From an uncultured Opitutia bacterium (lineage in GTDB: Bacteria; Verrucomicrobiota; Verrucomicrobiia; Opitutales; UBA953): a stretch of DNA of 36,210 bases. Each line of letters starts with the position of its first letter. Position 1 is the stretch's first letter. The position numbers and the translations under genes were made by a program. Positions 1 to 7,884 of this stretch are shown here, piece after piece. Where the stretch lies: positions 1-36,210 of the forward strand of contig CAIRWP010000165.1 in the NCBI GenBank assembly GCA_903882335.1, written 5' to 3'. The notes beneath the pieces are model-generated. The model did not search any database, had not been told where the DNA came from, and saw only the letters and a program-made list of their open reading frames with translations.

Positions 1-467
1 ACGTCAACTCGCCCTTGCCCGAGCTCTTCGCCACGGGCGCCTACCGCCCGCGCCGCGCCCAGCCTACCGCCTCCAACGCGATGGACATCGGTGCGCCGAA
101 CAACCTCGACCGCCTGCTGGCCTGGCGCGAGGGCGGCCCGGTCGTCGAGGCCGTCACGGTCGACGACGCCACGACGCTCGACACCATGCGCCGCGTCCGC
201 GCCGCCACCGGCTACGTCCTGTGCCCGCACAGCGCGGTCGGCTGGAAGGCTGCCGAGGACCTGCGCGCGCGCCGCCCGGACCTCGACCAAGTCGTCGTCT
301 TCGGTACGGCCCACCCGGCCAAGTTCCCGGATGTCCTGGAGCAGGCCTTCGGCGACGCCCACGCGTCGATCTTCCCGTTCGCCCTGCCGCCGCCCGCGCC
401 CCTCCGGATCGGGAACGATTTCGAGGCCGTGCGTGCCGTGCTGACGTCCGAGGCGGGCTTCCGCTGA
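1..467 (+). CDS. thrC: threonine synthase, C-terminal part (5' end outside window)
   Basis: The frame is open from the left edge, so this is the last ~154 residues of a longer protein. The visible sequence has the pattern of the C-terminal region of PLP-dependent threonine synthase: a VNSPLPELFATG-like stretch, then SNAMDIGAPNNLDRL (compare SNAMDVxxPNN in bacterial ThrC), then a (V/L)CPHSAVGWKAAEDL segment and VVFGTAHPAKFP. The enzyme converts O-phospho-L-homoserine to threonine in the cytoplasm. The catalytic lysine region lies outside the window. The track start at 15 is a TTG inside the coding frame, not a true start. The gene ends 6 bp before the stop of the opposing small lipoprotein gene, with no room for a separate terminator. 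Confidence 0.93.
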   Translation, partial: VNSPLPELFATGAYRPRRAQPTASNAMDIGAPNNLDRLLAWREGGPVVEAVTVDDATTLDTMRRVRAATGYVLCPHSAVGWKAAEDLRARRPDLDQVVVFGTAHPAKFPDVLEQAFGDAHASIFPFALPPPAPLRIGNDFEAVRAVLTSEAGFR

Positions 468-627: not shown

Positions 628-657
628 CAAAAAGAAAGGCCGCCTGACGGCGGCCTT
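628..657 (-). terminator. intrinsic terminator after the TPR-exbBDD operon
   Basis: A perfect 9-bp stem (AAGGCCGCC / GGCGGCCTT) with a 4-base loop is followed, on the minus strand, by a T-rich run (TTTCTTTTTG). It lies 20 bp past the stop codon of the last exbD gene. Confidence 0.85.
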
Positions 658-677: not shown

Positions 678-1121
678 TTATTCCGGCTCCGCGACCGCGA
701 AGGTCACGTTGTTGATGTCCGCGCGGGCGAGGACGTCGAGGACGTTGATCACGCGCTCGTAGCGGGCGGCCTCCTCGGCCTGCACGGTGATGAGCACCTT
801 GGTCTTCGACTGGACGGCCGCCTGCTTCAGTTTGGTCATCTCGTTGAAGAGGCCGTCCAGGGTCTTGTCCTGCGGGGTTCCGACCGGGTCTTCGTTGATG
901 GTGATTTGCCCGTTCTCCGAGACGCCGATGGTGATCTCGTCGGGGATCTCGGTCTCCTTCGCGGTCTCGGCATTGCCGGGCAGGGTGGTCTTGAGCTCGT
1001 GCTCGACCTTCACGGCGCCAGCCATGACCATGAAGAACAGCATAATCACGAAGACCACGTCGATCATCGGGGCGATCTGGAAACCGGCGTCGGCCGGCAT
1101 CTCCTGGGGGGCGCGTTTCAT
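678..1121 (-). CDS. exbD: ExbD/TolR-family biopolymer transport protein (second copy)
   Basis: 147 aa, the usual length for ExbD/TolR. A short cytoplasmic N-terminus leads into one transmembrane helix of the form APMIDVVFVIMLFFMVM. Asp21 sits in the helix start at the position of the proton-responsive Asp of ExbD (E. coli Asp25). The rest is a periplasmic alpha/beta domain. With ExbB it would form a proton-driven channel that energises a periplasmic partner. It is the last gene of the five-gene minus-strand operon and starts 3 bp after the stop of the preceding exbD. GAGGAA upstream of the ATG lies inside the end of that gene and could serve as ribosome binding site. The family call is firm. 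The identity of the energised partner is not known. Confidence 0.93.
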   Translation of the reverse strand: MKRAPQEMPADAGFQIAPMIDVVFVIMLFFMVMAGAVKVEHELKTTLPGNAETAKETEIPDEITIGVSENGQITINEDPVGTPQDKTLDGLFNEMTKLKQAAVQSKTKVLITVQAEEAARYERVINVLDVLARADINNVTFAVAEPE

Positions 1122-1124
1122 GGC

Positions 1125-1565
1125 TTATTCCTCGCGGTTGAGGCCCGAAAAGGCGATGTTGTCGATACCGGCCTCGCCACCCCACTCGAGGGCCTTGGAG
1201 ATGTACTTAGCGTGGCAGTCCTTGTCGGCGCGGATGAGCAGGCGGTACTTCTCGTTGTTGCCCTTGCGAGCCTGGAGTTCCTTGGCGATGCCGTCCTTGT
1301 CGTTCGGATCGAGCTCGCGGTCGTCCAGCTTGTACTTGGCCTGGCCGGTGGTCTTGTCCCAGGAGATGTTGATCAGGCCGGCGGCGGCCTTGTCGTCGCG
1401 CTTCACGCCGTGGGCGGCCACGGGCAGGGAGATATTCTTGTCGACCTTGAGCACCTGGGAGGAGGTGATCGACATGAAGAAGATCAGCAGCACCAGGAGC
1501 ACGTCGATCATCGGCGCGACCTGGAATTCCGGTTCGCCTTCTCCGCCTCCGCCTCCGCCTGCCAT
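1125..1565 (-). CDS. exbD: ExbD/TolR-family biopolymer transport protein (first copy)
   Basis: 146 aa. It begins with a run of six glycines and an acidic patch, then the family helix APMIDVLLVLLIFFMSI with the conserved Asp at residue 21. A periplasmic domain of about 100 residues follows, ending in IDNIAFSGLN, which matches the usual ExbD C-terminal strand. It differs clearly from the neighbouring exbD in both the periplasmic domain and the N-terminus, so the two are paralogues rather than a recent tandem duplication. It lies 29 bp downstream of exbB. The bases before the start are C-rich (CTAACCCCACCCC-like) with no Shine-Dalgarno sequence. Confidence 0.93.
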   Translation of the reverse strand: MAGGGGGGEGEPEFQVAPMIDVLLVLLIFFMSITSSQVLKVDKNISLPVAAHGVKRDDKAAAGLINISWDKTTGQAKYKLDDRELDPNDKDGIAKELQARKGNNEKYRLLIRADKDCHAKYISKALEWGGEAGIDNIAFSGLNREE

Positions 1566-1594
1566 GGTTGTGCTGGGGTGGGGTTAGGGGTGAA

Positions 1595-2392
1595 TCAGGC
1601 CTTCACCTCGGCAGCGACTGGCTCGGTGTTCCACACGGGCTTGGCCGCGTAGAGCTCGTCGCCACCGACGTTCTTGCCTTCGATCTCCGCGTAGGGGAAG
1701 CCGCGGAAGAGGCCACCGACGATCTCGGTGACGTCATGAATGCCCTTCTGGATGCGGTTGCGGAGGAGGTAGTAGGAGATGAAGGCCGGGATCGCGATGA
1801 AGAGGCCGGACGCGGTCGCCACGAGCACCTCGCCGATCGCTTCGGCGAGCTTGGAGGGGTCGCCCACGCCGGAGGAGCCGAGCTTTTCGAACGCCTTCAT
1901 CATACCCGTCACGGTGCCGGTGAGGCCGATCATCGGCGTGCACACCCCGATCACGGAGAGGTAGGAAGCGCGGCCCATGAGGTCGGCCTGGATGCGGGAG
2001 ATCTCGGAGATGATGGCCTCCTCGGTCATGGTCTTGCCGTCGGGGCTGAGCGCGACGCCCGCGCGGACGACGTCGCAGAGGGGAGAGCCGGCGTTCTTGG
2101 CGAACTCATGGGCGGCGACGTAGTCACCGGCACGGAAGTGGTCGCGGAGCTGCACGACATGGGCGGTCGGGTAGAGCTTCTTGGCGCCGGTGCGGAGGAA
2201 GCCGTCGACGATGAACCAGATCATCGCCACGGAGCAGATGGTGATCGGGTACATGACCCAGCCACCTTCGTGGAAGAGGTCCATCATGGTCTTTTCCTTG
2301 ACGCCGGGGGCGGCTTCCTGGGCGACGGCGGCCAAGGTGGACAGCCCGAGGAACAGGGTGGCCAGGAGGGAGGTGCGGGAATTCATCTTCAT
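1595..2392 (-). CDS. exbB: ExbB/TolQ/MotA-family proton channel protein with signal peptide
   Basis: 265 aa. An N-terminal hydrophobic segment ending in AVAQ looks like a cleavable signal peptide. A first membrane helix follows at about residues 45-65 (GGWVMYPITICSVAMIWFIV), then a cytoplasmic loop, then two helices. These carry TPMIGLTGTVTGMMKAF (about 151-167) and VATASGLFIAIPAF (about 188-202), the MotA/TolQ/ExbB signature with its two conserved threonines. The protein would form the pentameric inner-membrane core around which ExbD helices sit. It is gene three of the operon, 54 bp after the 340-aa TPR gene. The leader before the ATG is C-rich with no Shine-Dalgarno sequence. Confidence is high for family and moderate for function in this setting, because no TonB or TolA is present. 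Confidence 0.95.
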   Translation of the reverse strand: MKMNSRTSLLATLFLGLSTLAAVAQEAAPGVKEKTMMDLFHEGGWVMYPITICSVAMIWFIVDGFLRTGAKKLYPTAHVVQLRDHFRAGDYVAAHEFAKNAGSPLCDVVRAGVALSPDGKTMTEEAIISEISRIQADLMGRASYLSVIGVCTPMIGLTGTVTGMMKAFEKLGSSGVGDPSKLAEAIGEVLVATASGLFIAIPAFISYYLLRNRIQKGIHDVTEIVGGLFRGFPYAEIEGKNVGGDELYAAKPVWNTEPVAAEVKA

Positions 2393-2446
2393 AGGGATGA
2401 TAGGGTAGGGTGGTTGTTAGTTAGGAAAGCGGGGCGGGGCAAGGAC

Positions 2447-3469
2447 TCACTTATTGCCTTCGTCGGAAGGCGTGTTGTTGGCGGCGGGCTTGGCGGTCCC
2501 TTCGGGGATGACCGCCGCGTCCTGGATCTTGCGCTGGGCCTCCTCGGCCTGCAGGCGGTCCTCCTTGGGGAGGAGCTTTTTGGCCTGCTCGGCCTCCTTG
2601 GAGGTCGGGTAGGTGGCGACGATGTCGCGCAGGTAGCGGTTAGAGACCTCCTCGAGCTTCTGCTCGCGGGTCGCCGGGGTGTCCATGCCGCGGAAGGAGC
2701 GGGCGGCGCCGAGGAGGGCCTTCGGCACGTGCTCCTGCTGGGAGCCGTAGAAGACGGGGACGCGGAGGTAGGTGTTCATCGCGGCCTCGTATTTCTTGGT
2801 GGCGAGCAGGGAGGAGCCCTTGACTAGGTGCAGGCGGGCCTGGAGGTCCGGGTCATCCAACTGCGGCATGAGGCTGGTGGATTCGGTGATCACGGCCTCG
2901 TGCTCGCCGCGGCGGGCGCGCTGCATCAGGCGGGCCAGCTTGATCTTGGTGGCCAGTTCGGCGATGGAGCCGTCGTCGGCGCGTTCCAGCGTGTCCAGGA
3001 AGGAGGAGAGGGCGGCGTCGTTCTCGAGGCGGTCGAGGGCGTCCAGCTTCACGATGGAGGCCTTGAGCCACCAGCTCCCCTTCACCTTCTTGATCGGGTC
3101 GAAGAACTTGATGACGGGCTCGATGTTGTCGAGGGCCTTGCCCGGCTCGCCGCGCGCGACGTTGTTCTGGGCCTCGGTCAGGCGCTCCGGGAGCGGCCAG
3201 ATGATGGTTTCGACCTCGGCGAGCTTGCGGGTCATGATCATCTCGGTGCCGTCCTGGATGGTCGTGCGCTCGACGGTACCCTTGAGGCTGCTGATCTGGC
3301 CCTTCTTCTTGTCGATGATGGGCTTCGGGGGAATGACGGTGTTGTCGACCTTGAAGGGGTCGTTGACCTCCCAGCGTTCGCCGCCCTTGAAGATCAGGGT
3401 CTGGCCGAAGGCGGGCAGGGCGGCGCCGAGCGCGGCGGCGGCGAGGAGGAGGCGGGGGAACGGGCGCAT
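2447..3469 (-). CDS. exported TPR-like protein, 340 aa, of the ExbBD operon
   Basis: A signal peptide (MRPFPRLLLAAAALGAALPAFGQ, cleavage after AFG or AFGQ) is followed by a small beta-rich segment at about 24-95 (TLIFKGGERWEV, then KGQISSLKGTVERT). From about residue 95 to 300 it is helical, with TPR-like pairs such as ALLGAARSF and KYEAAMNTYLRVPVFYGSQ. The C-terminus is a charged, disordered tail. It should be periplasmic. There is no lipobox. It starts 3 bp after the stop of the 1109-aa TPR gene and precedes exbB. I do not recognise a named family. The context suggests a partner of the ExbBD channel, analogous in position only to the TPR protein CpoB/YbgF of Tol-Pal systems. Confidence 0.85.
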   Translation of the reverse strand: MRPFPRLLLAAAALGAALPAFGQTLIFKGGERWEVNDPFKVDNTVIPPKPIIDKKKGQISSLKGTVERTTIQDGTEMIMTRKLAEVETIIWPLPERLTEAQNNVARGEPGKALDNIEPVIKFFDPIKKVKGSWWLKASIVKLDALDRLENDAALSSFLDTLERADDGSIAELATKIKLARLMQRARRGEHEAVITESTSLMPQLDDPDLQARLHLVKGSSLLATKKYEAAMNTYLRVPVFYGSQQEHVPKALLGAARSFRGMDTPATREQKLEEVSNRYLRDIVATYPTSKEAEQAKKLLPKEDRLQAEEAQRKIQDAAVIPEGTAKPAANNTPSDEGNK

Positions 3470-3472
3470 GGC

Positions 3473-6400
3473 TTAGAGGCGGGTGTTGAGGGACTTGGCC
3501 TCGGAGGCCTCCGGGGTGTCCTTGATGCGGTCCTTGGACAGCATCTCGGCCAGCAACAGCTTGGCCTCGGGCTTCTGTCCGAGCTTGTCGGCGAGGACGC
3601 GGGCGGTGGCGAGGTAGGCCTTGGCGGACCAGAATTCGTACTTCTTCCAGGTCTGGTAGCAGCGGCGGTAGTAGGCGACGGCCTCGGCGTTCCGGCCTTG
3701 GCGTTCCTCCATGACCCCGAGCCAGTAGAGGCTGCCGGCGGTGGCCTCGCCGCGCCATTCCTTGGTCTGCAGAATCTCCTCGAAGGCCTTCTTGGCGTCG
3801 GGGTAGGCCTGGGTCTCGGCGAGCGCGCGGGCGCGGGCGAACTTAATCTCCTTCTCCTTCGACATCGTGATCTGGTTGTCGACGGCCTCGTTGCAGAGCT
3901 CGAGGGCCTCCTTGAACTTCTTCTGCTGGAGGAGGATCTCCGCCAGGCCGGCGAAGCCGAAGTCGGCGTACTCGGAGGAGCGGTTATGCTCCTTGATGTA
4001 CTCGAAGTAGGCGGCGGCCTTGGCGGTCTCGCCCTTCGCGAGCAGGTGGTCGCCGACCACGGCGAGGATCGTCGGGCTGAGTTCCTCCGCCTTGTAGTTG
4101 GCGGAGACCTTCTTGAAGAAGGTGTCGGCCCGGTCGGGGTTGCGGAGGAAGACGTTCAGCTGGCCCATGGCGAAGAAGCCGCGGGCCTGGGCGATGAGGG
4201 AGCCCTTGTTCTGCTCCAAGCGGAGGAGTTGGGTCAGTTCGGCCTCGGCGTTGGCGGGGGAATAGGCGGCGGGGTCAACCGGGGTGCCGGGCTTCACGCG
4301 CTTCACCTTGCGGGCGAGCTTCTCGCAGAGGAAGATGACGAGTTTCTCGTTACCCTCCTGCTTGCGGTCGTTGATGGTTTCGGCGACCGAGGCGGAGAGG
4401 ATGCCAAGGGCCTCGGTCTTGGCGACGATGATGCTGGCCTGGCGGTCCTTCTCGACGACCGCGAGCTCGTCGGCGAGCTTGGCGGACAGCTTGGCGACCT
4501 CGGCCTTGGCGGCGGCGATGGCCTCCTTGGTGGCGCCGTCCTGGCGCTCGAGGGCGTCGACCTTCTTGCGTTCGGCGGCGAGCTGGCCGCTGAAGCGCTT
4601 CTGGACCTCCTCGCTGCGTTGGGCGAACTCCGGCTTGTCGCCAAGGCGCTCGGTGGCCTTGATCACCTCGTAGAGGTAGGTCAGGGACTTCGGATCGTTA
4701 TGATCCCAATCGTAGACCTCCTTGTAGAGGTCGCGCATGCGGGCGTGCTCGCCGCGGCCGGGCAGCAGCTTGCCGAGCTCGCGCAGGACGAACTCCAGCG
4801 CGTTGGTGTTGGTGCGGCCGCTGCGGGCGGCGGCGACATAGGCGTCGATGGCCTTGGCGGTGTGGCCGTCCTTCTCCTTCTCGAGGCGGGCCTTCTCGGC
4901 GAGGAACTTCTTCTTGGTCTCCGGGGCGGCGTTGGTGCGGGCGGACTCGTCGGCCTTGCGGATGGGCTTGTCGAGCTCGGTGGCCAGACGCATCTCGGCG
5001 TCGCCGATAAGCGTGTGGACCTCGGGGACCTGGTTGACGACGGCCTCGTCCTTGCTGACGGCGTAGTCCTTCAGCCACTCGTTGCAGAGGCGCAGGGTCT
5101 CGGTGGTCTCCGGCGGGGTGAGGCCGAACTTCACGATCGCCTGGCGGTAGCGGACGTCGGGCAGGAACTTGCCGCGGCCCGCGTAGTCGGCCTGGTACTG
5201 GTCGAAGCCGGTCTTCGTGTCCTTGTACTTGCCTTGGTAGAACCAGCAGAGGGCGCGCATGTAGACAGCCTGCTCGCGGGCGAGGGAGCGCGGGTACTTC
5301 TGGTTGAACGCGTCGAGGGCGGCGCCGGCCTGCTCCCAGTCGACGTTGGCGAAGAGGCAGGTGATGATGCGGAAGTCGATCTCCTCGACGGTGGCCGCGT
5401 CGATCTTCTTCACGTTGGTCTTGGCCCAGTTGTAATGCTCGATGGCCTCCTTGAAATCCTCGCGGTCCTGCGAGATCTCGCCGAGGATGACCGCGACCGC
5501 CGGGACTTCCTCGCTGTCGGGATATTTCTGCAGGAACTCCTTGCACTTCGCCTGGGCCTCGGTGTTGCGGCCGATCTGGCGCAGGGCGACGATGTAGTAG
5601 TAGTAGGCGCCCGAAACCTTGGAGAAGCCGGGGTTGTTGTCGAAGATATCGCGGAACGCCACGAAGGCCTCCCAGTGCTTGTTCAACTCCAGCAGGCACA
5701 GGCCGATGCGGTAGGAGATGAAGGCGTCGTAGTCCTTGTTGGCGGCGAACTCGCCCTCGATCTTCTTGAACTGCTCGACGCCCGCGATGGCCTCCTCGAT
5801 CTTGATCTTCGCGTTGTCGTCCGGCTTGGGGTAGAGTTTCTTGAGGTTATCGACCTCGGCCTGCTTGGCCTCGACCGCGCGCGAGACGGAGCGAGCCACG
5901 GTCGCCCGGCGGAGGGTGCCCTGGTAGCTCGCGAGCGCCTGGCGGTAGAGCTCGACCTTCTCCTTCTCGTCGGCGGCGTTCTCGGCGGCCTCGAAGCGGG
6001 AGTCGCCGATCTCGATGCGCTGGAAATTGGAGCGCACGATCTCGGCGGGCGAGCCGGTCCCGCGGGCGTCGACCTCGGCCTTGAGCTGCTCGGCTTCCTT
6101 GGTCAGGCCGAGCTTGGTGTAGACCTCGACGAGCTTGGCGGCGGCTTCGCGGCGCTCCGGCGTGGCGAGGCCCTCGGCGATGGCCGACTTGAGGAGCTGC
6201 ATGGCCTGACCGAGGGCCTTCTTCTTTTCGACCTCGTCGGCGGATTTGGCCTTTTCCTCGAGGATGCGGGCGGAGAGGGTGTAAGCGCTGATGCGGTCTT
6301 CGGCGCGGATGGCGATATTGGGGGCGCGGAGTTTCTCGAGGAGGGCCAGGGCGGGGTCCCACTTGGACTGGCTGGCGAGGGCTTCGACGAGGCTCAGCTG

Positions 6401-6802
6401 GGCGATGCCGCGTTTGTTGTCCAAGCCGTAGAAGTCCTCGGTGCCCTTGGGGTACTTGGCAAGGAAGGCGGTCAGTTCCTCCTCGGTCTTGGCCCAGTCC
6501 TTGAGGGTGTAGACGGCGACGGCCTTGTTGAACGCCAGGACCGCCTTGAGCATGTCGCCCGCCTCGGTCGGCAGCTGCTTCTCCATCTCGCTCAAGGTGT
6601 CGTAGGCGGCCTTGTACTTCTTGGCCTCCATCTCCTTGCCGGCCCGCTTGAAGAGGGCTTCCAGTTTGTTCTCGGGCGCGGGCGCGGTGGCCGCGGGCTT
6701 GGTCTGGGCTCGGGCGGGAGTGGCGACCGGGGTCACCGCCAGGAGGACGGCGAGGATGGCGGCTTTGGCCAGTTGGTAGGTGCGGGACTCGTGGGTGGCC
6801 AT
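3473..6802 (-). CDS. large exported TPR-repeat protein, 1109 aa, first gene of the ExbBD operon
   Basis: The N-terminal signal peptide ends in ATPARAQ (about residue 33). Most of the rest is degenerate TPR/Sel1-like helical repeats, for example GKEMEAKKYKAAYDTLSEM, YYYIVALRQIGRNTEAQAKC and LYWLGVMEERQGRNAEAVAYY. A coiled-coil stretch at about 715-765 (QLAAERKKVDALERQ, then KAEVAKLSAKLADELAVVEK) interrupts the repeats. There is no membrane anchor after the signal peptide and no lipobox, so it is probably soluble in the periplasm. TPR solenoids usually bind proteins, and the operon partners suggest that it connects the ExbBD motor to something in the periplasm or outer membrane. That role is inference. 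The ATG at 6802 is chosen because the signal peptide follows directly. Confidence 0.88.
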   Translation of the reverse strand: MATHESRTYQLAKAAILAVLLAVTPVATPARAQTKPAATAPAPENKLEALFKRAGKEMEAKKYKAAYDTLSEMEKQLPTEAGDMLKAVLAFNKAVAVYTLKDWAKTEEELTAFLAKYPKGTEDFYGLDNKRGIAQLSLVEALASQSKWDPALALLEKLRAPNIAIRAEDRISAYTLSARILEEKAKSADEVEKKKALGQAMQLLKSAIAEGLATPERREAAAKLVEVYTKLGLTKEAEQLKAEVDARGTGSPAEIVRSNFQRIEIGDSRFEAAENAADEKEKVELYRQALASYQGTLRRATVARSVSRAVEAKQAEVDNLKKLYPKPDDNAKIKIEEAIAGVEQFKKIEGEFAANKDYDAFISYRIGLCLLELNKHWEAFVAFRDIFDNNPGFSKVSGAYYYYIVALRQIGRNTEAQAKCKEFLQKYPDSEEVPAVAVILGEISQDREDFKEAIEHYNWAKTNVKKIDAATVEEIDFRIITCLFANVDWEQAGAALDAFNQKYPRSLAREQAVYMRALCWFYQGKYKDTKTGFDQYQADYAGRGKFLPDVRYRQAIVKFGLTPPETTETLRLCNEWLKDYAVSKDEAVVNQVPEVHTLIGDAEMRLATELDKPIRKADESARTNAAPETKKKFLAEKARLEKEKDGHTAKAIDAYVAAARSGRTNTNALEFVLRELGKLLPGRGEHARMRDLYKEVYDWDHNDPKSLTYLYEVIKATERLGDKPEFAQRSEEVQKRFSGQLAAERKKVDALERQDGATKEAIAAAKAEVAKLSAKLADELAVVEKDRQASIIVAKTEALGILSASVAETINDRKQEGNEKLVIFLCEKLARKVKRVKPGTPVDPAAYSPANAEAELTQLLRLEQNKGSLIAQARGFFAMGQLNVFLRNPDRADTFFKKVSANYKAEELSPTILAVVGDHLLAKGETAKAAAYFEYIKEHNRSSEYADFGFAGLAEILLQQKKFKEALELCNEAVDNQITMSKEKEIKFARARALAETQAYPDAKKAFEEILQTKEWRGEATAGSLYWLGVMEERQGRNAEAVAYYRRCYQTWKKYEFWSAKAYLATARVLADKLGQKPEAKLLLAEMLSKDRIKDTPEASEAKSLNTRL

Positions 6803-6945: not shown

Positions 6946-7884
6946 TCAGCGCGCCGCCTTCCGCCCGGAGGCCAGCAGGGTCTCGAAGCCCGGCTCGCGG
7001 TCCTCCTTGGCGACGACCCGGACCTCGGATTCGCGGAAGCCGGCTTCCTCGAGCCAATCGTGGAGGTCGTTCTCCTTGAAGCCGAGCCAGCGATCGGCGT
7101 AAAGCTCGCGGGCCTTCTCGAAGCGGTGGGCACGGAGGTCGAGGATGAGCACCCGTCCGCCCGGCTTGAGGATGCGGTGGGCCTCGGTCAGGGCTTTTCG
7201 CGGGTTTTCGGCGTGGTGCAGGGCCTGGCTGAGCAGGACGAGGTCGACCGAACGGTCGGGCAGGGGGGCGTCCTCGATGTCACCCAGGACGTAGTCCAGG
7301 TTGTTCAACTGTTCCTTTTTGGCCAAGGCCCGGCCCAGCTTGACCATCCGCGGGGAGTTGTCGACGCAGTGCACGAACTCGGCCTGCCGGGCCAGCAGGC
7401 GGGACAAGGTACCGTCGCCCGCCCCGAGGTCGGCGATGCGCACTTTCGGAGCCAGCAGCAGGAGCATCTGGCCGATGGCTTCCCAGGAGCGTCCGGGGCA
7501 GTAGTTCTTGCCGAGCCGGTCGGCGACCAGGTTGAAGTGCTGCTCGGCCTTGCGGCGGCGCCGCTCGACGATCCGTTGCAGGGCCCGTTGGTCGGCCCGG
7601 GTGGCCGGCTCGGCCTCCGTGGCCCGGATGGCCGCCTCCAGGATGCTCTGCACGCCGGCCCCGAGGCCCCGGGCCAGGGAGTAATAAGAATGCTTTCCGT
7701 CGCGGCGGTCTTCGGCCAGGCCCGCCTTACGGAGCAGGGCTAGGTGGGTCGAAATGCGCGATTGGCCCATGCCGAGGATCTCCTGCAGCTCGCCGACCGC
7801 CAGCTCGCCCTTGGCCAGCAGGAACAGCAGGCGGGCCCGGGTCGGATCGGACAGGAGGCGGAGGGATTCCCAAGGGTCGGGCAT
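6946..7884 (-). CDS. ArsR-type winged-helix regulator fused to SAM-dependent methyltransferase
   Basis: 312 aa in two parts. Residues 1-85 are an ArsR/SmtB winged helix (LSDPTRARLLFLLAKGELAVGELQEILGMGQSRISTHLALLRKAGL). I see no metal-binding CxC or CVC pair in the recognition helix, so it is not an obvious metal sensor. Residues 100-300 are a class I methyltransferase with motif I VRIADLGAGDGTLSRLLA, an acidic VDNSPRM loop and post-motif HHAENPRKALTEAHRILKPGGRVLILDL. Proteins of this architecture are known and, from memory, often sit with methionine/SAM cycle genes. Here the neighbours are greA and the TPR operon. It starts 84 bp beyond the greA stop codon, across the greA terminator. The methyl acceptor is unknown. 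Confidence 0.9.
   Translation of the reverse strand: MPDPWESLRLLSDPTRARLLFLLAKGELAVGELQEILGMGQSRISTHLALLRKAGLAEDRRDGKHSYYSLARGLGAGVQSILEAAIRATEAEPATRADQRALQRIVERRRRKAEQHFNLVADRLGKNYCPGRSWEAIGQMLLLLAPKVRIADLGAGDGTLSRLLARQAEFVHCVDNSPRMVKLGRALAKKEQLNNLDYVLGDIEDAPLPDRSVDLVLLSQALHHAENPRKALTEAHRILKPGGRVLILDLRAHRFEKARELYADRWLGFKENDLHDWLEEAGFRESEVRVVAKEDREPGFETLLASGRKAAR

Follow-up and report, generated by a model that had tools for sequence, protein, structure and literature searches.

The window analysed here is the whole of contig C165 (36,210 nucleotides) from the 2.4-Mb draft genome (G000) of an uncultured Opitutia bacterium, and on its minus strand five tightly packed genes fill positions 6802-678. 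In order, they encode two exported tetratricopeptide repeat (TPR) proteins of 1109 and 340 aa (TPRA and TPRB), one ExbB and two different ExbD proteins (ExbD1 and ExbD2); all five open reading frames (ORFs), picked out in a first-pass annotation of this DNA, are confirmed. The named genomes closest to this one are metagenome-assembled genomes of freshwater Opitutae/Opitutales. The known motors of the ExbB/TolQ family pull TonB or TolA. We propose, with a probability of roughly 0.6, that the present genes specify a proton-driven ExbB/ExbD1-ExbD2 motor that works on a periplasmic TPR scaffold and drives plug-in TonB-like transducers, probably for glycan capture.

The five-gene set is old and strictly conserved, and recurs across Verrucomicrobiota. 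With TPRB as bait, matches were found in 31 of the 188 genomes of the window's class, and the exact order TPRA-TPRB-ExbB-ExbD1-ExbD2 is present in 19 of the 20 class neighbourhoods retrieved (L039 and L054, among these 20, reach a contig end), at TPRB identities down to ~26%. When named genomes were searched with ExbD1, 80 loci emerged, and 69 of these hold exactly these five genes in the order given above. Of the remaining 11, four keep all five genes in order but have an additional or a split ORF, and seven are incomplete by one or more members, in most cases at a contig end; L215 and L225 are missing a recognised upstream member with no obvious contig edge. The same five families also occur, at lower similarity, in loci of other Verrucomicrobiota classes. 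Retention of the order in roughly 100 loci excludes a chance arrangement, and the gene order, which the first-pass annotation allowed might be confined to close relatives, extends well beyond them. Two metagenome-assembled genome records titled Akkermansia muciniphila (L202) and Polynucleobacter meluiroseus (L179) contain an operon of the freshwater Opitutae type, with ExbD1 >90% identical, and these names look wrong.

The motor subunits display the features of the ExbB/TolQ-ExbD/TolR family. ExbB contains the channel domain (PF01618) and, when aligned to solved TolQ, retains both conserved Thr positions, in GTVTG and ATASG, while its N terminus bears a Sec signal-like segment. Both ExbDs (PF02472) possess a single membrane helix with its characteristic Asp, which in ExbD1 is Asp21, invariant across 17 orthologues, and in ExbD2 lies within APMIDV. 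ExbD1 and ExbD2 form separate orthologous groups throughout, in a constant order with ExbD2 always second, and the best NCBIfam scores of ExbB and ExbD are to the TolQ/TolR models.

TPRA and TPRB both begin with Sec-type, cleavable-looking signal peptides without a lipobox (judged by eye), that of TPRA ending in ARA before a Q. TPRA has many TPR matches in Pfam (TPR_12, TPR_6, YfiO) and YbgF/BamD/PorW-like matches in NCBIfam, and its AlphaFold2 model is all-helical, a single long TPR solenoid with a predicted local distance difference test (pLDDT) score of 86. Foldseek pairs this model with long scaffold TPRs, one of which, at rank 26, is a chain from the periplasmic scaffold of the Campylobacter flagellar motor. 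The parallel is instructive, given that MotAB, the stator of the flagellum, is itself a member of the motor superfamily of ExbB/ExbD. TPRB has no TPR match in Pfam; in NCBIfam it matches the Mul1B family NF052542 (E 1.6e-8) with 34 bits against a cut-off of 75, and also shows YbgF-like similarity. Its model (pLDDT 82) comprises a small N-terminal beta domain (strands 24-90) followed by TPR helices (95-319), and returns weak BamD-like matches only in Foldseek. Sequence searches of the PDB with TPRA and TPRB gave no matches. Neither the sequences nor the AlphaFold2 models of the two proteins contain a membrane helix for motor docking or a TonB-like domain, and the role we prefer for them is that of a periplasmic scaffold.

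A further, TonB-like gene comes after the ExbD genes in 13 of the 20 neighbourhoods from the class (L040-L047, L049, L051-L053, L055), starting about -55 to +115 bp from the ExbD2 stop in 12 of them and ~300 bp past an extra ExbD2 in L047; in L054 the contig ends at this position, with a partial transducer match, and in L050 the transducer gene follows TPRB rather than the ExbDs. The product of this sixth gene consists of one membrane helix, a disordered Pro/Ala/Gly-rich linker in which certain motifs recur, and a C-terminal domain differing from species to species, and an alignment of the transducer N termini (A1) reveals an invariant His in the membrane helix. Transducer ends were classed by Pfam scans, as profile iteration strayed into the Gly-rich linker and many ends escaped a motif regular expression, and the domains identified were VWA_3, PA14 and SQHop_cyclase_C; DUF4159 occurs in a similar protein after an operon-like cluster of another class (L105). 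Two consecutive transducers, the first cyclase-like and the second PA14-like, are present in L154. In two genomes (G118 and G128) the TPRB gene adjoins a transducer on one contig while ExbD1 lies on another, an adjacency which ties the TPR proteins to the transducers directly. As separate observations, a squalene-cyclase-like toroid appears as a periplasmic C-terminal domain at L052:12423-14309, L154:8389-10047 and L103:1722-3170, and one 8.6-Mb genome (G152) holds ten transducer N termini, suggesting a large expansion.

In the window no sixth gene lies immediately 3' of ExbD2, where a terminator and then a convergent gene are found, and the transducers of this genome are instead located in trans. 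The A1 profile matches contigs C20 (E 7e-14), C223 (1e-3) and C279 (2e-3), the weaker values for the last two arising from a truncated and a divergent N terminus. C223 encodes a PA14-like end; since the vWA and PA14 ends of this genome have no Pfam match, they were read from motifs and from similarity to confirmed ends. C20 and C279 carry two tandem vWA-type transducers (L137:3071-4243 and L139:3-1613), the first apparently split across both contigs, with PilB/PilC-like genes (assigned by eye) upstream and a YbgC-like thioesterase after them. Transducer homologues are also present in the window's genus and family, and a near-complete genome of the same genus (G098, 8 contigs) contains PA14-like as well as vWA-like pairs, and in no case does another ExbB lie next to them. 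The first-pass description of the operon as being without TonB or TolA thus holds for the operon but not for the genome, in which C375 encodes a TonB that has an ExbB of its own and a TonB-dependent receptor, in addition to the non-canonical TonB-like transducers on C20/C279 and C223. Across the class, a transducer is present in all 26 genomes with a strong ExbD1 match (E<1e-50) versus 30 of the 162 others (p about 1e-16), and in 15/15 when the genomes used to build A1 are left out (p 1.6e-10), values which overstate independence as the genomes are related.

A second line of comparison is provided by MUL1, a mucin utilisation locus of Akkermansia muciniphila, reportedly described by Davey et al. 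in 2023. Genomes with a Mul1B protein above the family cut-off fall in one family (f8) and mostly in one genus (g26), which we infer to be Akkermansia from the name of the Mul1B model and from a GH20 enzyme that matches the solved beta-N-acetylhexosaminidase 8pxu nearly end to end, an entry that we take to be from A. muciniphila. Loci of this genus contain the same five protein families, namely ExbB, two ExbDs, Mul1B and a TPR protein of ~1100 aa, in the rearranged order ExbB-ExbD-ExbD-TPRA-TPRB (Mul1A corresponding to TPRA and Mul1B to TPRB), and have low sequence similarity to the window operon. TPRA would be distantly homologous to Mul1A-type proteins and TPRB a distant relative of Mul1B. 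Matches to the TPRA profile in the presumed Akkermansia family are weak, with the Mul1A locus as the top match in three genomes out of seven and the runner-up in another, and no match at all in the other three, so the family link to MUL1 relies mainly on the joint gene set and on the ExbB tree. In that tree, the window-type rows form one clade (99/97) and the MUL1-type rows another (100/100); together with operons of other classes, these group away from most paralogues with moderate support (83-88%). One paralogue row, L239, falls inside this group and may itself be a member. Directly after a six-gene operon in G147 lies a second ExbB-ExbD-TPR (816 aa) set (L155:9476-13155), whose ExbB belongs to a separate, well-supported clade that is also seen in presumed Akkermansia. 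Save for one marginal match, no transducer of the A1 type was recognised in the presumed Akkermansia genomes, and because these have the motor and TPR genes without a recognisable transducer, such transducers do not extend to every member of the wider family.

These observations bear on the idea, raised in the first-pass annotation, that the TPR proteins are themselves energised and take the place of TonB or TolA, with no need of a dedicated transducer. It would agree with five genes being the invariant core, with the terminator and the lack of a transducer in the operons of the window and its close relatives, and with the situation in presumed Akkermansia; however, the TPR proteins look secreted and soluble, and transducers are adjacent in many class relatives, in trans in the window genome, and co-occur completely. 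We consider this explanation quite improbable and have rejected it as the leading idea for the window's lineage, as the TPR proteins have no membrane helix and transducers are found in trans. It survives best for MUL1 of presumed Akkermansia, in whose genomes no such transducer was recognised. What stands of the earlier proposal is a distinct envelope machine and, possibly, the scaffold role of the TPR proteins; a TPR solenoid as an energised substitute for TonB or TolA is not supported.

The system also shares individual features with the classical energised envelope complexes. As in TonB-ExbB-ExbD, it has a motor of the ExbB/ExbD family and transducers with a TonB/TolA-like membrane helix, but there are two different ExbDs and two TPR proteins, and the transducers are without a TonB domain. 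Its likeness to Tol-Pal extends to a TolQ/TolR-like motor with a periplasmic TPR partner (CpoB in Tol-Pal); in contrast, it has a giant TPR solenoid and two TolR types, and according to ORF and Pfam analysis TonB, TolA, TolB and Pal are absent from the operon. A Tol-Pal-like machine that maintains envelope integrity, for division or outer-membrane upkeep, with the TPR proteins as CpoB equivalents, might be envisaged given that ExbB and the ExbDs score best against TolQ/TolR and TPRA against YbgF/BamD, and given the YbgC-like thioesterase after one transducer pair in the window genome. We nevertheless regard it as unlikely, considering the missing TolA, TolB and Pal, the PA14 and toroid domains, which are not Tol-Pal parts, and the association of the homologous MUL1 and of a similar Fibrobacter locus with glycan use. 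In Fibrobacter succinogenes, adjacent locus tags for an OmpA (FSU_2396), two TPR proteins (FSU_2397/2398), an ExbB (2400), two ExbDs (2401/2402) and a TonB (2403) are raised on cellulose, and the TPR protein FSU_2397 is found in complex with cellulases (PMC6851124). This cluster resembles ours in its succession of TPR, TPR, ExbB, ExbD, ExbD and TonB, as judged by locus tag, although it belongs to another phylum.

The closest described counterpart is found in the Planctomycetes-Verrucomicrobia-Chlamydiae (PVC) bacteria, for which Williams-Jones et al. (2025, PMC12204202) reported force transducers with vWA C termini alongside single TPR and tolQ genes and a pair of tolR genes, the adjacent transducer being often but not always present (PMC12204202). 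The window operon likewise has TPR genes, one TolQ and two heterologous TolRs, and most likely represents the same system as these TPR-tolQ-tolR-tolR-vWA operons. It differs in that neither the window nor its close relatives have a transducer next to the operon, the transducers being in trans, and in that two TPR genes are present rather than one, PA14, squalene-cyclase-like and DUF4159 ends occur rather than vWA only, and there is a link to MUL1; the words PA14, squalene, Akkermansia and mucin are absent from the text of PMC12204202. A gliding-like role suggested there for the vWA transducers (Williams-Jones et al., PMC12204202) raises the question of a motor for surface motility or secretion, similar to AglRQS gliding or to the type IX secretion system (T9SS), with vWA/PA14 transducers moving adhesins. 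The weak match of TPRA to PorW/SprE and the position of one vWA pair of the window genome after PilB/PilC-like genes point the same way, yet neither a T9SS nor a gliding marker was found in the operon, and the MUL1 and Fibrobacter evidence favours glycan use, making such a role highly improbable.

The layout of the locus is summarised in Table 1. The strong terminator noted in the first-pass annotation is real as a pattern (a 9-bp stem and T-run at 657-636), whereas its candidate promoter is not borne out (0 sigma-70-like sites found), and the upstream gene lies on the same strand, 143 bp away. The threonine-synthase-like and ArsR/methyltransferase-type neighbours were found again by tblastn in about 46-52 related loci, a pattern suggesting that the operon has been passed on vertically at a stable position. 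Between the operon terminator and the convergent gene, a 37-codon ORF (MKTVLLLTLACLLLSGCIIVVEQPRDAKPAPAATEKK, minus strand, 473-586) likely encodes a small lipoprotein.

Table 1. The operon and its flanking features, in window coordinates.
Feature	Position	Strand	Evidence or remark
TPRA, exported 1109-aa TPR solenoid	3473..6802	-	ORF; TPR_12, TPR_6, YfiO matches; first gene in 19/20 class loci
TPRB, exported 340-aa protein, beta domain and TPR helices	2447..3469	-	ORF; NF052542; AlphaFold2 model
ExbB/TolQ-type motor subunit, 265 aa, N-terminal signal-like extension	1595..2392	-	PF01618 4e-25
ExbD1, ExbD/TolR type, 146 aa, N terminus MAGGGGG-GEPEFQIAPMIDV	1125..1565	-	PF02472 8e-17
ExbD2, second distinct ExbD/TolR, 147 aa, signature GFQIAPMIDVVFVIMLFFMVMAG	678..1121	-	PF02472 1e-20
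Intrinsic terminator	636..657	-	9-bp stem, 7 G-C pairs, T-rich tail, 20 bp past ExbD2 stop
Convergent gene end, threonine-synthase-like by eye; downstream boundary of the operon	15..467	+	ORF; tblastn match in 52 related loci
ArsR/methyltransferase-type gene upstream	6946-7884	same strand (-)	143 bp from TPRA

Our favoured explanation, a motor with plug-in transducers, might operate as follows. The operon would provide the constant part of an envelope motor powered by protons, in which ExbB would form a pentameric channel with an ExbD1-ExbD2 heterodimer seated inside, and proton flow through the pentamer would turn or shift the heterodimer. A TonB-like transducer could then dock at the rim of ExbB via its His-bearing helix and span the periplasm, and the motor would act on the transducers, not directly on the TPR proteins. 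TPRA and TPRB may hold the motor, the transducers and client proteins together, with transducers supplied by a sixth operon gene in many class relatives and from elsewhere in the genome in the window's family. Such a machine would most likely use the energy of the motor to capture or take up polysaccharides at the outer membrane, in line with its homologue MUL1.

Several points count against this explanation. The window operon is surrounded by housekeeping genes and not by genes for carbohydrate-active enzymes, and the putative role in glycan use is extrapolated from the distantly related MUL1 and from Fibrobacter. The link to MUL1 is itself loosened by the failure of TPRB to reach the Mul1B cut-off and by tree support that is moderate. 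Apart from one marginal match, A1-type transducers were not found in presumed Akkermansia. The assembly of motor, TPR proteins and transducers is a supposition drawn from genes and single-protein models.

The system has been glimpsed twice before under different names, as the PVC vWA transducers (2025) and as MUL1, and the unification of the two, the diversity of transducer ends and the location of transducers in trans seem to be new within the literature searched. Mucin accumulation depends on MUL genes (PMC12418764), and mucin-degrading enzymes have been marked as associated with Mul1A (PMC11790493). MUL1 has been treated as lacking synteny in aquatic Akkermansiaceae and hence as gut-specific (PMC13174399); the present loci suggest that its origin is older than this gut-specific view holds. 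A wider possibility, which we put forward tentatively and at somewhat less than even odds, is that one motor and a shared TPR scaffold drive many transducers, distinguished chiefly by their C-terminal domain (vWA, PA14, cyclase-like toroid and DUF4159), as a general Verrucomicrobiota force platform underlying glycan capture, of which MUL1 would be a derived branch. By swapping the end domains of the transducers, force could reach several different targets, and the present analysis supplies testable partners for the system. The link to MUL1 suggests that a much older device, spread across the phylum, gave rise to the mucin machinery of Akkermansia as one of its branches.

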